In this document: positions 3,094 to 7,648 of the stretch, piece after piece
How the letters are laid out: every line of letters begins with the position of its first letter
Position numbering within the stretch: position 1 is the first letter of the stretch
From: Bacillota bacterium
GTDB taxonomy: Bacteria; Bacillota; SHA-98; UBA4971
DNA: 64,000 bases
Assembly: GCA_024653485.1 (NCBI GenBank)
Contig: JANLFY010000005.1
Coordinates: 62,001 to 126,000, forward strand
Direction of reading: 5' to 3'
Notes under the pieces: model-generated
Databases searched by the model: none
Seen by the model: only the letters and a program-made list of their open reading frames with translations
Told to the model about the DNA's origin: nothing
Translations under genes and position numbers: made by a program

Positions 3094-3909
3094 TCACCTT
3101 CGACCTAGACCGTCGAGGAATCGGAGGACGGAGTTCCTCTCGATGAGGGCTGTCAATGAGTGACGCTCCGAGTAAGCGTGTAAGAGGCCCAGCAAGACGA
3201 GGATCACCGCTCTCGCGACAAGCGGCGTGGAAAGCACGACCCAGTAGCCGAGCGCGGCTCCGAGCGGGTTGCTCCCGGCATCCCCGAGCATGCTGCCCTC
3301 CCTCAGGTCGTCCTTCATTCCCGCGAGCACCGCCCCGGCAAGGGCGACAGGCACGAGCGCTGGAGCGGGCAGTCCCGTCACCAGCGAGAGCGCCGCCGCA
3401 CCAGCCACATAGGCCTTTGCGGCCCGGCCGGGCCTGAGGTCCAGGAGGTTGGAGAGATTGGCGGCCAGCGCAACGATCGCGGCATCCATGAGGAGCGTGG
3501 TCAAAGGGAGGGACGGGGCAGCAGCTCGAACGGATAACGCCGCGGAGATGACGATTGCGACGGCTTTGAGGATCCCTGTGGTGAGGGTCCCGCGTCTCAC
3601 GAGCGCCGCCGCGTGCCCCACCAAGCCGCGGTTCTCACCTGACCCGAAGACGTCGTCCACCACGCCAGCGAGCGTACATGCCGTCACAAGGAGAAGGCAT
3701 GGCATGGACGAGGGCTGGCCGCTGCCGCTCGGTGCCGCGACGGTTACGCAAGCCACAGCGGCACACAAGACAAGTGGGGCTCCCATTGAGGAGGGCACGA
3801 CGCGCCCTGCGTAGTTGGGCCGAACGTGGCCGAGGCGCACCAGCACGTCGCGCGCGGGCGGCGCGATGACCAGCGCAAGCGCGTACGCCAACACCAGACA
3901 CTCGAGCAC
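3094..3909 (-). CDS. MraY/WecA-like polyprenyl-phosphate sugar-1-phosphate transferase, short form
   Basis: Polytopic membrane protein (271 residues, about 8 hydrophobic segments) of the PNPT superfamily that couples sugar-1-phosphate to undecaprenyl phosphate. Recognisable elements are an Asp-Asp pair in AGVVDDVFG near residue 82, an NLLDLRPGR element near 155 (the usual N-x-x-D-G-x-D-G region), and MLGDAGSNPLGAALG near 205, equivalent to the GDTGSL motif. It is shorter than MraY or TagO (about 320) and the N-terminal first helices look reduced, so catalysis is not assured. The start is a GTG shortly after the glycosyltransferase stop. Its place as last member of a steA-steB-GT2 series suggests a lipid-linked glycan step connected with envelope assembly. 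Substrate is unknown; the function is inferred from family and context. Confidence 0.75.
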   Translation of the reverse strand: MLECLVLAYALALVIAPPARDVLVRLGHVRPNYAGRVVPSSMGAPLVLCAAVACVTVAAPSGSGQPSSMPCLLLVTACTLAGVVDDVFGSGENRGLVGHAAALVRRGTLTTGILKAVAIVISAALSVRAAAPSLPLTTLLMDAAIVALAANLSNLLDLRPGRAAKAYVAGAAALSLVTGLPAPALVPVALAGAVLAGMKDDLREGSMLGDAGSNPLGAALGYWVVLSTPLVARAVILVLLGLLHAYSERHSLTALIERNSVLRFLDGLGRR

Positions 3910-3930
3910 CGCTCGGTCTCACCTCGCAGC

Positions 3931-4635
3931 TCACGTCCTCGGGACGCGAAGAGCGCGACAGGCGAGGGCCCTCGTCACCCAATACAACTGCCTGCCCCTA
4001 TGGAGGAACCCTGCGAAGTCCCTGCCCGTCGCCCGGTGCGACATCTCGCAATCGACCTCCGCGATGCGGTATCCGCGCCTCGCCGCGTCGATCGTCATAC
4101 CGACCTCCACACCGAAACCGCTCTCAAACGGCGTGAGCGCAAGCACGACGTCGCGCCTTGCAGCCCGCTGCCCTGACAGAGGCGCAGACACCCAAAGGCC
4201 CGCGAGGCACCTGATGCCCGTCTTCGCCATGCCCTTGACTATGCCGAACCCACCCGCCGCGGTCCCTCGCCGTGTCCGCCTGAACCTAGCGATCGTCATG
4301 TCGACCTCGCCTCGCACTACCGGCGCGATGAGCTTTTCCACCTCGGACGCGCTATCCCCCAGATCGGCATCGAGGAAGGCCACTACGTCTCCAGTCGTCT
4401 GCCACACGCCTTCGGTGAGGGCCGCGCCTTTGCCCGACCGCCGTCCCAGACTCACGACGCGGGCTCCCGCAGCCTCGGCCGCCTGTGCGGTTGTGTCAAC
4501 GGACCCGTCATCGACGACCAGTACTTCGCATGGAAAGCCGCATGCCACGACGCCTGCGCGGGCCGCCCGGACGGTGGAGGCTACCGTGGACCCCTCATTG
4601 TAAGCGGGGATGATCACGGAGATGAGCCTGCTCAC
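3931..4635 (-). CDS. family 2 glycosyltransferase
   Basis: GT-A fold inverting glycosyltransferase of the DPM/GT2 type (234 residues). The N-terminus carries SVIIPAYNEG followed by EVLVVDDGSVD, and the metal-binding FLDADLGD motif lies near residue 90. A long C-terminal part has GFGVEVGMTIDAARRG, typical of polyprenyl-phosphate or nucleotide-sugar GT2 enzymes. There is no C-terminal membrane pair, so it is a cytosolic or peripheral enzyme. The GTG start (4635) overlaps the upstream steB stop in a GTGA arrangement, which decides it over an in-frame start about 40 codons further upstream. Neighbours are steB/steA and the MraY-like transferase, suggesting both transferases build or modify one lipid-linked sugar. 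The sugar donor cannot be read from sequence. Confidence 0.85.
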   Translation of the reverse strand: MSRLISVIIPAYNEGSTVASTVRAARAGVVACGFPCEVLVVDDGSVDTTAQAAEAAGARVVSLGRRSGKGAALTEGVWQTTGDVVAFLDADLGDSASEVEKLIAPVVRGEVDMTIARFRRTRRGTAAGGFGIVKGMAKTGIRCLAGLWVSAPLSGQRAARRDVVLALTPFESGFGVEVGMTIDAARRGYRIAEVDCEMSHRATGRDFAGFLHRGRQLYWVTRALACRALRVPRT

Positions 4636-5537
4636 TGAGGAATCCCCCACATTTCCGGGACGAGGGTTTCTGAAGCGCCTTTGATTCCGAAGTTGCCCTT
4701 TTGCACGGCCAGTGCGTGGACCAGGAGAAGCCGGCCAAGCGGAACGTCTGCACAATCCACTGTGGGAATGCCTTCCCTCCTATAGTCGGCGATGTGGGAG
4801 ACCTTCACGTCCCAGCTCTCAGCGCCCACGACCTCCACCCCGAGGTCCTTGAGCGCCCTCACCATCGGGATCCCAGCGTCAGCCGGGCCCGACGCGGGGT
4901 CGGAGCTACCAACCACCACGACCACGGCATCAGCGGAATCATTCGGGAGAAGCTCTTCCTGTCCGCGCAGAGTGGCATACCCCCACAGGAAGAGGGCGTC
5001 AGCGACTTGGCTCGCCTCGTGGAACGCCAGGTAGGCTGCGAGGGCGCGAGCGGCCTCGAGCCCTATGAGATCAGACTCGGTCTCGCTCAGCCCGAACAGC
5101 GATGCGGCCTCCCTCGCGTCCGTGCCTGCAGCCGGGACGAGGTCCTTGTTGACGTACACCACCCGAGCCACGCGTGCTCCGGCGTCTTCGAGGATGCTGC
5201 AGATCTTCTCCACTTCCTCTGGAGACATTGCGTCGTGGCACACTGCTATCGCTACGCGTTTGCCCGAGAGTCTTCCCCGAACGAGAAGCGACGCCGCCGA
5301 TTCCTCGAATTCCAGAGATGCGGCGAGGAGCCTCTGGGATGCGGCGAGACGCCCGCTCAGGTCCTCCTTTTCCGCCCTCATCCTAGCAAAGTCCTCCTCC
5401 AGCCTGTCGATCATCTGCTCCTGCCTCTCCACCAGAGCGCTATCGGTCACAAGCGCGCTTCCCACCAGGATACCGACCCCGAGCGCGAGGAACACGGCGA
5501 CCAGGGAAGCCAAGTGGTATTTCATGTCGACCATCAC
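4632..5537 (-). CDS. steB: MctB/SteB family membrane protein (copper transporter MctB-like)
   Basis: Member of the family annotated as 'copper transporter MctB' or SteB: one N-terminal membrane helix (residues about 6-28, HLASLVAVFLALGVGILVGS), a coiled coil (about 35-75), then a Rossmann-like extracytoplasmic domain of about 220 residues. MctB was described as a mycobacterial copper-resistance channel, while its corynebacterial relative SteB pairs with SteA in cell separation. Here steA lies directly upstream, which favours the SteA/SteB role. No copper-binding Cys/Met/His cluster stands out. The start is GTG 5537 or ATG 5534, both with AGAGGTGG upstream. The stop overlaps the glycosyltransferase GTG, so the genes are coupled. 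Confidence 0.85.
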   Translation of the reverse strand: MMVDMKYHLASLVAVFLALGVGILVGSALVTDSALVERQEQMIDRLEEDFARMRAEKEDLSGRLAASQRLLAASLEFEESAASLLVRGRLSGKRVAIAVCHDAMSPEEVEKICSILEDAGARVARVVYVNKDLVPAAGTDAREAASLFGLSETESDLIGLEAARALAAYLAFHEASQVADALFLWGYATLRGQEELLPNDSADAVVVVVGSSDPASGPADAGIPMVRALKDLGVEVVGAESWDVKVSHIADYRREGIPTVDCADVPLGRLLLVHALAVQKGNFGIKGASETLVPEMWGIPQ

Positions 5538-5589
5538 GGCGGTGCCACCTCTTCACGCTCCACCGCAAGACCGGGCTCAGGCCTCGACG

Positions 5590-6714
5590 TCAAAGCAAGC
5601 CTACGTCCAATCTCAGCCTGATGAGCAAGAGCCTGAGAATCTGCCTGACCATGTCCGACTCGGCGCCGGCAAGGGCCAGCGGAACCAGCGCCGCGATGAC
5701 GAGAAGGATGACATAGCCCACCCTCACGCGTCCCGTGTACAGCTTGCTCACGCCTTTCGCGTCCACGAGGAGAGAGCCTAGCTTCAGGCGGGTCAGGAAC
5801 GTGGACGCCATACCCGGCCTGCCCTTGTCGAGGAAGTCCTCCACACTCGTGTGGGTGCCGACAGCGACGATCAGTTCCGCGCCGTTCTCGTACGCGAGGA
5901 GCATACCCAGGTCTTCGCTGGTACCGGGGACGGGGCAAACGGCGGCTTCGAGGCCGAGCCGCTTGATCCGATCCAGGCCTGGCGCCCTGCCGTCGGAGTA
6001 CGCGTGAACCACCAGTTCACTGCCGCGTCGAAGGGCGTCGTCGGAAACGCTGTCCATGTCCCCCACGATGACGTCCGGGAAGAACCCCATCTCAAGGAGC
6101 GCATCGGCAGCTCCGTCGACGGCGATGATGGCGGGACGCACCTCTTCGATATAGGAGCGAATGGCCCGAAGATCCTCCTTATAGTCCCTGCCCCTCACGA
6201 CCACGAGCGCGTGCCTGCCCACAAGCCTCGTGCGGAGCGGCGGAAACGCGAGACCACCCAGGATCGCCGACTTCTCGCGGCGCGCGTACTCAATGGTGTT
6301 GGACACGAACGCGTCGAGCTCGCGAGCGAGCTCCTTCCGCGCCCGGCCGAGCTCGCGCTCCAAAGATGCGAGCGTCTGGATCCGGCCCTGGCTCACTACC
6401 GTTCCGTCCCTCACGACTGAGTTCCCCTCCAGCTCGATGAGATCGCCGTCCCTCACGAGGTCCAGGACCTCGCGGCCAACCTCGTCAACAATGTACACCC
6501 CCGCACGGCACAGCGAAATCGGCCCGGGATTGGGGTACCTGCCGCTCATGGATCTGCGCGCGTTCACCACAGCGCGAACCCCGGCTGCGACGAGGGACTC
6601 GCATGCCACCACATCGATGTCTTCGTGGTCAACGACAGCAATGTCGCCTGGGCGCAAGCGGGCCAAGAGGTTCTTCGTCCTCCGGTCCACCCTGGCTACG
6701 CCTTTGCACCTCAC
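5590..6714 (-). CDS. steA: SteA-like protein with thiamin-pyrophosphokinase-like domain
   Basis: Homologue of SteA, in actinobacteria a cytokinetic-ring-associated protein acting with SteB in cell separation. The protein (374 residues) opens with GVARVDRRTKNLLARLRPGD, a family signature. A thiamin-pyrophosphokinase-like domain contains AVDGAADALLEMGFFPDVIVGDMDS near residue 210. A single hydrophobic helix (VILLVIAALVPLALAG) near the C-terminus may anchor it to the membrane. I chose GTG 6714 because CGGAGGGC lies 8 nt upstream and the conserved family N-terminus begins there; an ATG at 6783 would add 23 unconserved residues. It is the first gene after spo0A, followed by steB, a GT2 and an MraY-like enzyme. 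Family call is good; a role in division or cell wall here is inference. Confidence 0.85.
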   Translation of the reverse strand: MRCKGVARVDRRTKNLLARLRPGDIAVVDHEDIDVVACESLVAAGVRAVVNARRSMSGRYPNPGPISLCRAGVYIVDEVGREVLDLVRDGDLIELEGNSVVRDGTVVSQGRIQTLASLERELGRARKELARELDAFVSNTIEYARREKSAILGGLAFPPLRTRLVGRHALVVVRGRDYKEDLRAIRSYIEEVRPAIIAVDGAADALLEMGFFPDVIVGDMDSVSDDALRRGSELVVHAYSDGRAPGLDRIKRLGLEAAVCPVPGTSEDLGMLLAYENGAELIVAVGTHTSVEDFLDKGRPGMASTFLTRLKLGSLLVDAKGVSKLYTGRVRVGYVILLVIAALVPLALAGAESDMVRQILRLLLIRLRLDVGLL

Positions 6715-6770
6715 GTGGACGCCCTCCGTGAATTCCCTGCTATCTCCCCCTCTCGTGAAATAGTATACTG

Positions 6771-6797
6771 AACCCCGGAACATATCATTCCGGGGTT
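6771..6797 (-). terminator. perfect 10-bp inverted repeat between spo0A and steA
   Basis: Arms 6771-6780 and 6788-6797 (AACCCCGGAA / TTCCGGGGTT) are perfectly complementary around a 7-nt loop. It lies 71 nt beyond the spo0A stop. Downstream on the minus strand there is no T tract, only CAGTATACT, so it could be a weak terminator, an mRNA 3'-end stabiliser or an operator. A TATACT hexamer at 6762-6767 immediately follows and could be the -10 of a steA promoter, although no matching -35 exists. Confidence 0.5.
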
Positions 6798-6868: not shown

Positions 6869-7648
6869 TCAGCTCGCGCGCATCTCGAGACGAAGCTTGT
6901 CGGCAATCCGTGCTATGAACGCCGAATTGGTGGGCTTGCCTTTCTCGCTGCTCACCGTGTGTCCGAAAACGCTGTGCAGGAAGTCAATGTTCCCGCGTGT
7001 CCAGGCTATTTCAATCGCATGTCGGATTGCGCGCTCAACCCTGGGAGCGGTGGTATCGAATTTCTGGGCCACCCGTGGATACAGCTCCTTCGTCACCCCA
7101 CCTAGCAGCCCGACCTCGTTGACCACCATTATGATAGCCTCTCTCAGGTACATGTAGCCTCTGATATTGGCCGGGATTCCCATTTCATGGATGATCCGCG
7201 TTACTTCGGTGTTGAGGTCGCGCGGAGCATCTGTGGAACCTAGCTTTCTCTTCCTCGCGACCCCACCGCTTTGAGCCACCTGTCGGATCCGCTGGGCTAG
7301 CGTCTCCATGTCGAACGGCTTGAGGAGGTAGTAGTCGGCGCCTAGCTCTATGATGCTCTGGGTCATGTGTTCCTGCCCTATGGCGGTAAGCATCACGAAT
7401 CTCGGCCGTTTCGGCATGTCTTGCCTTGCGAGGCGCTCGAGCACGCCGATCCCGTCTAGATGCGGCATGATGATGTCGAGAACCACCACATCCGGGTTGG
7501 TGGTGGATATGCTGTCGATGGCTTCCAGGCCGTCATAGGCAAGCCCGACCACTTCCATGTCGGGCTGGGCGTCGATGAACTCCTTCAGGACATCGCACAG
7601 TTCATGGTTGTCGTCGACGATGAGAACGCGCGTCCGACCAGAAGCCAT
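6869..7648 (-). CDS. spo0A: Spo0A, master sporulation response regulator
   Basis: Transcription factor that triggers endospore formation when phosphorylated by the phosphorelay. The protein (259 residues) has an N-terminal receiver domain with acidic pair D12/D13 (LIVDDN), phospho-acceptor D58 (VVLDIIMP) and conserved K110 (YLLKPFD). A variable linker leads to the C-terminal Spo0A DNA-binding domain (about 145-259) with [20 protein letters not shown] and the recognition-helix region [23 protein letters not shown]. It lies directly after spoIVB, as in Bacillus and Clostridia. A good sigma-H promoter is visible upstream at 7713-7739, matching the known Spo0H control of spo0A in Bacillus. GGGGTGG precedes the ATG. 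This gene is the strongest evidence that the organism forms spores. Confidence 0.98.

Follow-up and report, generated by a model that had tools for sequence, protein, structure and literature searches.

A conserved SteA–SteB locus with a MraY-like transferase in Bacillota and Actinobacteria

The steA locus and its gene products

The window, a stretch of 64,000 nucleotides from a Bacillota genome, carries on its minus strand the gene order spoIVB, spo0A, steA, steB, a GT2 glycosyltransferase gene, a gene for a MraY-like PNPT enzyme, and nfo. The sporulation response regulator gene spo0A (6869–7648; TIGR02875, 377 bits, and PF08769) is a neighbor whose adjacency is optional, and steA (5590–6714; NF040608, 490 bits, with PF12555 SteA-like_C and PF04263 TPK_catalytic) follows it after 154 bp. 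The steB gene of the MctB family (4632–5537) lies about 52 bp further on, and its stop is overlapped by 4 bp by the start of a GpgS/ArnC-like GT-A/GT2 glycosyltransferase gene (3931–4635; PF00535, 92 bits). Another 21 bp separate this gene from that of the PNPT (3094–3909), a 271-residue protein of a subfamily without a name, which was assigned from PF00953 together with a fold match. The earlier note had described these four genes behind spo0A, the last three tightly spaced or overlapping, and this arrangement is confirmed. The PNPT gene stops at 3094, and steA starts with the GTG at 6714, where the NF040608 profile also begins. The ATG at 5534 may be an alternative start for steB. The deoxyribonuclease IV gene nfo (2105–2986; TIGR00587) lies 3′ of the PNPT gene in the family of the window and in some others, and is not part of the module. 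No intrinsic terminator was found in the spo0A–steA gap; the strong minus-strand hairpin there (6766–6797; core CCCCGGAATGATATGTTCCGGGG, −18.8 kcal/mol, z −1.85) has no T-run and is a weak hint that steA is transcribed separately from spo0A. The window genome and its close relatives each give two Spo0A_C-domain matches.

SteA is a cytosolic protein with a TPK-like nucleotide pocket (PF04263, 34 bits) that scores 489.6 bits against NF040608 (cut-off 150) over profile positions 2–366 of 369. The pocket residues G216, D217, M218, D219, and S220 of the GDMDS region are invariant, a single C-terminal transmembrane helix spans residues 332–350 by a transmembrane scan with which PF12555 agrees, and the closest solved structures are the SteA cores PDB 9hmy and 9hmz. 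SteB (PF11382, 136 bits, cut-off 25.6; profile matches to PDB 9m9z, 9hle, and 8au6) has an N-terminal transmembrane segment (TM-like over residues 1–19) followed by an extracytoplasmic domain. In Mycobacteriales, SteAB activates RipA, and GDP and UDP bind to and stabilize CgSteA (PMC12977500, PMC6705760); a SteB-independent role through MtrAB has been described for the Mycobacterium tuberculosis homolog (PMC12338722). The RipA regulator SteAB of M. tuberculosis (Rv1697-Rv1698) and Corynebacterium glutamicum (cgp_1603-1604) has in common with the present proteins the SteA and SteB families, the gene order, the TPK-like pocket and C-terminal helix of SteA, and the N-terminal helix of SteB, and many relatives of the window locus also have recN upstream and NUDIX-xerD downstream. 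Unlike the SteAB-RipA system, the block described here contains a PNPT and a GT2. No RipA-type coiled-coil NlpC/P60 hydrolase was found in the window genome, and since the only NlpC/P60 protein found there shows SH3-like repeats and lacks a long coiled coil at its N-terminus (domains assigned by reading), RipA is not transferable as a target to this organism.

The GT2 protein has a GT-A Rossmann fold with a conserved DxD motif (AF2 model, pLDDT 93.8). Its top Foldseek match is GpgS of M. tuberculosis (4dec; E 2e-16, TMq 0.77, 32% identity in the structure alignment), followed by ArnC and MpgS. The fold and the motifs DxD, GKG, PLSG..A, and G(V/I)E are common to GpgS (glucosyl-3-phosphoglycerate synthase), ArnC/DPMS, and the window protein, but in contrast to GpgS the latter has about 234 residues, no transmembrane segment, and a score of 119 bits against the GpgS equivalog NF010496, below its cut-off of 262. 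Apparent steB–GT2 gene fusions at two relative loci (L045, L117) were rejected as out-of-frame extensions in GC-rich DNA, where the calling of open reading frames was mechanical.

The PNPT scores 22 bits against PF00953, under the Pfam cut-off of 27, and has no match in NCBIfam (MraY/WecA models, TIGR00445 included), which holds no model naming the subfamily. Its AF2 model (63-row alignment; pLDDT 95.7, pTM 0.93) was matched by Foldseek to MraY (6oyh, E 3.7e-5; 8cxr, TMq 0.72) and also to DPAGT1. In common with MraY are the fold (TM 0.6–0.7), the DD pair, the NxxN(L)xD loop, and the MxGDxG motif; the residues DD85/86, N151, N154, D157, and D210 are invariant in 63 sequences, and in the profile alignment DD85/86 and D210 fall on the aspartates that we take to be catalytic in MraY. 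Unlike MraY, the PNPT has about 270 residues and lacks the C-terminal HHH loop, in whose place stands E..SL..xIE...L..LD.LGR. The MraY segment TDGLDGLA, which presumably comprises uracil-site residues, is changed to LDLRPGRA, and for this reason the donor nucleotide is uncertain. The superfamily fold is also shared with the polyprenyl-phosphate GlcNAc-1-phosphate transferases DPAGT1, WecA, and TagO (TM about 0.6 for DPAGT1); the window PNPT has no sequence-level match to them, and one of its 63 relatives matches TIGR02380 weakly. The protein is thus modeled as a polytopic phosphoglycosyl transferase, with polyprenyl phosphate as the probable acceptor. The word shortened, which had been applied to it, is apt beside MraY (structures of about 300–376 residues) and does not hold as a truncation, about 270 residues being normal for the subfamily.

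Distribution in Bacillota and relation to sporulation

The surveys covered GTDB species genomes, many in draft form (299 Bacillota and 217 Actinomycetota), counted without correction for shared ancestry. SteA, GT2, and PNPT occur together in all 30 fetched relative neighborhoods, two of which miss SteB. Among the 299 Bacillota genomes, SteA is present in 188, the PNPT in 187, and both in 186, with three discordant genomes (two and one, respectively) and 110 that have neither (Fisher 5e-79, uncorrected for phylogeny). Within families otherwise having both proteins, single genomes lack the two jointly (G138 in f77, G293 in f17, and G089 in f35). Of 125 scorable Bacillota genomes among the matches listed, 121 have the PNPT gene no more than 3 kb downstream of steA and in the same orientation, and the remaining four have the two on different contigs. 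The partnership of SteA homologs with GT2 and PNPT genes, for which a neighborhood survey had been proposed, is therefore conserved far beyond the window genome, and an arrangement that recurs in every relative neighborhood and across two phyla is far from chance. The block stays together when moved (G304, L166), and the pairwise identities of SteA track those of GT2, PNPT, and SteB (r 0.83–0.85) more than those of Spo0A (0.66). Downstream of the PNPT gene, many Bacillota have the order DUF3866, NUDIX, SpoIIM-like, XerD (L079, L082, L086, L103, L108, L118, and L132), and DUF3866 also moves with the block (L166, L090). Of these loci, L082 is the block as carried by Thermoanaerobacterium saccharolyticum, a non-pathogen.

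Only one gene lies in the steA–PNPT gap of 20 Bacillota genomes among the matches listed. A true loss of SteB in these roughly 20 genomes was rejected: its gene has mostly moved (18 genomes have SteB elsewhere), and in G281 and G128, which retain SteB, it is the GT2 that is missing and gives a false impression. No SteB was found in G021, where the gap is not scorable. At L149–L163, from several families, SteB stands behind polA-mutM-(ytaF)-coaE-membrane lytic transglycosylase (SLT)-NAPRTase, in many cases with a solute-binding lipoprotein just before it; this location is a lead to a possible hydrolase link.

The location of steAB downstream of spo0A in Clostridia has already been published (2026; PMC12977500). 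In the present survey, spo0A lies at most 6 kb upstream of steA in at least 73 of 92 scorable Bacillota genomes among the matches listed, a lower bound where contigs break. Spo0A and SpoIVA are both present in 184 of the 188 SteA genomes, and SteA occurs in 1 of the 38 genomes with neither, so that the association of the module with sporulation in Bacillota is real, phylogeny not being factored in. These counts would suit a spore-specific envelope pathway, whose four genes act in asymmetric septation, in the cortex or germ-cell wall, or in engulfment, and owe their retention to sporulation. This explanation is nevertheless unlikely, because the SteA–PNPT pair is found in 88 of 217 Actinomycetota genomes, 61 of the 245 Bacillota genomes with Spo0A and SpoIVA have no SteA, the association is uncorrected for phylogeny, and two Bacillota keep recN-steA-steB-GT2-PNPT without local spo genes. 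These are Peptostreptococcus canis (L098), from a genus that we take to be non-sporulating, with no spo0A or spoIVB at the locus, and G217 (L164), with no spo genes. Moreover, G055 has spoIVB-steA with spo0A missing, and in G304 spo0A is 577 kb from the block on one chromosome. The module therefore requires neither sporulation nor a place next to spo0A. The earlier note had suggested an uncharacterized division or spore-envelope pathway of spore formers; what stands is an uncharacterized conserved module of SteA, SteB, and lipid-sugar enzymes that within Bacillota is nearly confined to genomes with sporulation genes, and what is left without support is its specificity to spore formers and its tie to spo0A, the block being found also in Peptostreptococcus, in G217, and in Actinobacteria. 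The spoIVB-spo0A pair looks interleaved in an older recN-steA-steB-...-NUDIX-xerD neighborhood. At six Peptostreptococcaceae loci (L125, L092, L095, L103, L114, and L132), a gene of about 400 codons lies between spo0A and steA, and that of Romboutsia (L125:5565-6845) is poly(A) polymerase/CCA-adding enzyme-like.

Actinobacterial loci and SteA genomes without the PNPT

A scan of named genomes found recN-steA-steB-PNPT in Geodermatophilus, Glycomyces, Actinomadura, Nocardiopsis, Rarobacter, Phytoactinopolyspora, and others. At these loci, a protein of the family of the lipid II flippase MurJ (PF03023) usually comes after the PNPT, with CTP synthase later; it stands 3′ of the PNPT or at the same locus in 15 named actinobacterial loci and in L177–L180 and L183, and the Bacillota loci read showed no such gene next to the module. 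The GT2 is missing from the block in many Actinobacteria. Both GT2 and PNPT genes lie downstream of steB at L127, L176, and L182, and the Coriobacteriia-like loci L138 and L139 have GT2 and MurJ on the other strand and the PNPT further on. Among the 217 Actinomycetota genomes, 98 have SteA, 91 the PNPT, and 88 both, with SteA alone in 10, the PNPT alone in 3, and neither in 116; the two genes are within 15 kb of each other in 82 of the 88 and on different contigs in the other six. In this phylum the PNPT gene is usually the one immediately after steB. As 16 of 17 actinobacterial sequences form one supported clade of the PNPT tree, old vertical descent fits better than recent transfer. The core of the module is SteA with a distinct MraY-like PNPT, usually joined by SteB. 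Bacillota and some Actinobacteria add to this the GpgS/ArnC-like GT2, and many Actinobacteria have the MurJ-family flippase next to the PNPT.

Ten Actinomycetota genomes have SteA without the PNPT. Six of their loci read recN-steA-steB-pyrG-NUDIX-xerD, which, with steB optional, is presumably the order of M. tuberculosis and C. glutamicum; steB was not detected at the PNPT-less locus L174. SteA scores 292–355 bits at these six loci versus 457–520 bits at PNPT-bearing ones, with a model that is Bacillota-built. Emb arabinosyltransferases, a mark of arabinogalactan, number two or more in five of the ten genomes and are missing from the other five, so the view that Emb alone explains the loss of the PNPT was rejected. 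Conversely, no Emb was found in the 33 PNPT genomes tested and no PNPT in five sampled SteA genomes with Emb; C. glutamicum, among the control genomes, was positive for SteA and Emb. The absence of the PNPT from all five Emb-bearing SteA genomes, together with the MurJ-family flippase beside the PNPT in Actinobacteria, would agree with a role of the PNPT in making the linkage unit for a secondary wall polymer (an analog of teichoic acid or of the arabinogalactan linker), with SteAB only timing septal deposition and the mycolata having swapped in the arabinogalactan linker. We consider this quite unlikely, given that a conserved polymerase, ligase (LCP), or ABC exporter was not noticed at the locus and that the five further PNPT-less genomes are also without Emb.

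A proposed septal-envelope module

The least probable explanation, that steA, GT2, and PNPT genes are merely frozen in an old recN-...-xerD neighborhood with no functional link, fits the equally conserved recN upstream and CTPS, DUF3866, NUDIX, and xerD downstream, but is hard to reconcile with the coupled presence and absence of SteA and PNPT (13 discordant genomes in Actinomycetota beside the 3 in Bacillota), their joint loss within otherwise positive families, and the movement of the block as a unit (L166).

We favor, at about even odds (a probability near 0.5), the reading that Bacillota and Actinobacteria have in this block an ancestral module of the septal envelope or of division, with SteAB as the link between peptidoglycan hydrolysis and a pathway for a polyprenyl-linked glycan. 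The enzyme classes, co-occurrence, and synteny are those observed above, and the chemistry, product, coupling, and phenotype are proposed from them. The PNPT would transfer a sugar-1-phosphate from a nucleotide sugar to polyprenyl phosphate at the inner face of the membrane, the GT2 may extend the lipid-linked sugar or supply a further one, and a MurJ-type protein, where present, would flip the lipid-linked product. A coupling of SteA to the PNPT and GT2 is something that we purely infer: the SteA dimer would read the nucleotide state of the pathway through its TPK-like pocket and, via the transmembrane bundle of SteB, license peptidoglycan hydrolysis once the material of the septum has been laid down. 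The module would serve division in spore formers, and probably also the sporulation septum or engulfment, which would explain its retention mainly in sporulators.

More tentatively, the SteAB of mycobacteria and corynebacteria could be a derived remnant of a septal checkpoint common to Bacillota and Actinobacteria, a possible though not a probable history. The MraY-like enzyme, with the GT2 and a MurJ-type flippase, would there make and export a new polyprenyl-linked glycan, and SteA would sense a nucleotide by-product or donor to license separation. In the tuberculosis bacterium and its relatives, SteAB has been studied for its control of septal wall hydrolysis, and if the ancestral partner of SteA was a membrane lipid-sugar transferase that is missing from arabinogalactan lineages, the likely signal is a nucleotide sugar or its product.

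A partnership of GT2, PNPT, or MurJ with SteAB was not found in the literature searched, which covered few subscription papers, and is apparently undescribed, whereas the adjacency of steAB and spo0A is already known. That literature also yielded no locus-tag papers on the block in Clostridioides difficile, and neither a mutant nor biochemical or localization work for the PNPT or the GT2. The C. difficile glycolipid enzymes UgtA and UgtB were rejected as candidates for the GT2 and PNPT genes, the text consulted giving no link to the spo0A locus. If the ancestral partner of SteA was such a transferase, the finding also names an unstudied PNPT subfamily, with spore formers that are not pathogens, and soil actinobacteria, as hosts for its study. 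Two records, titled Armatimonadetes (L126) and Lutibacter (L109), carry the Bacillota-type block; in the PNPT tree they fall within clades of Bacillota, and they are probably misbinned or mislabeled.
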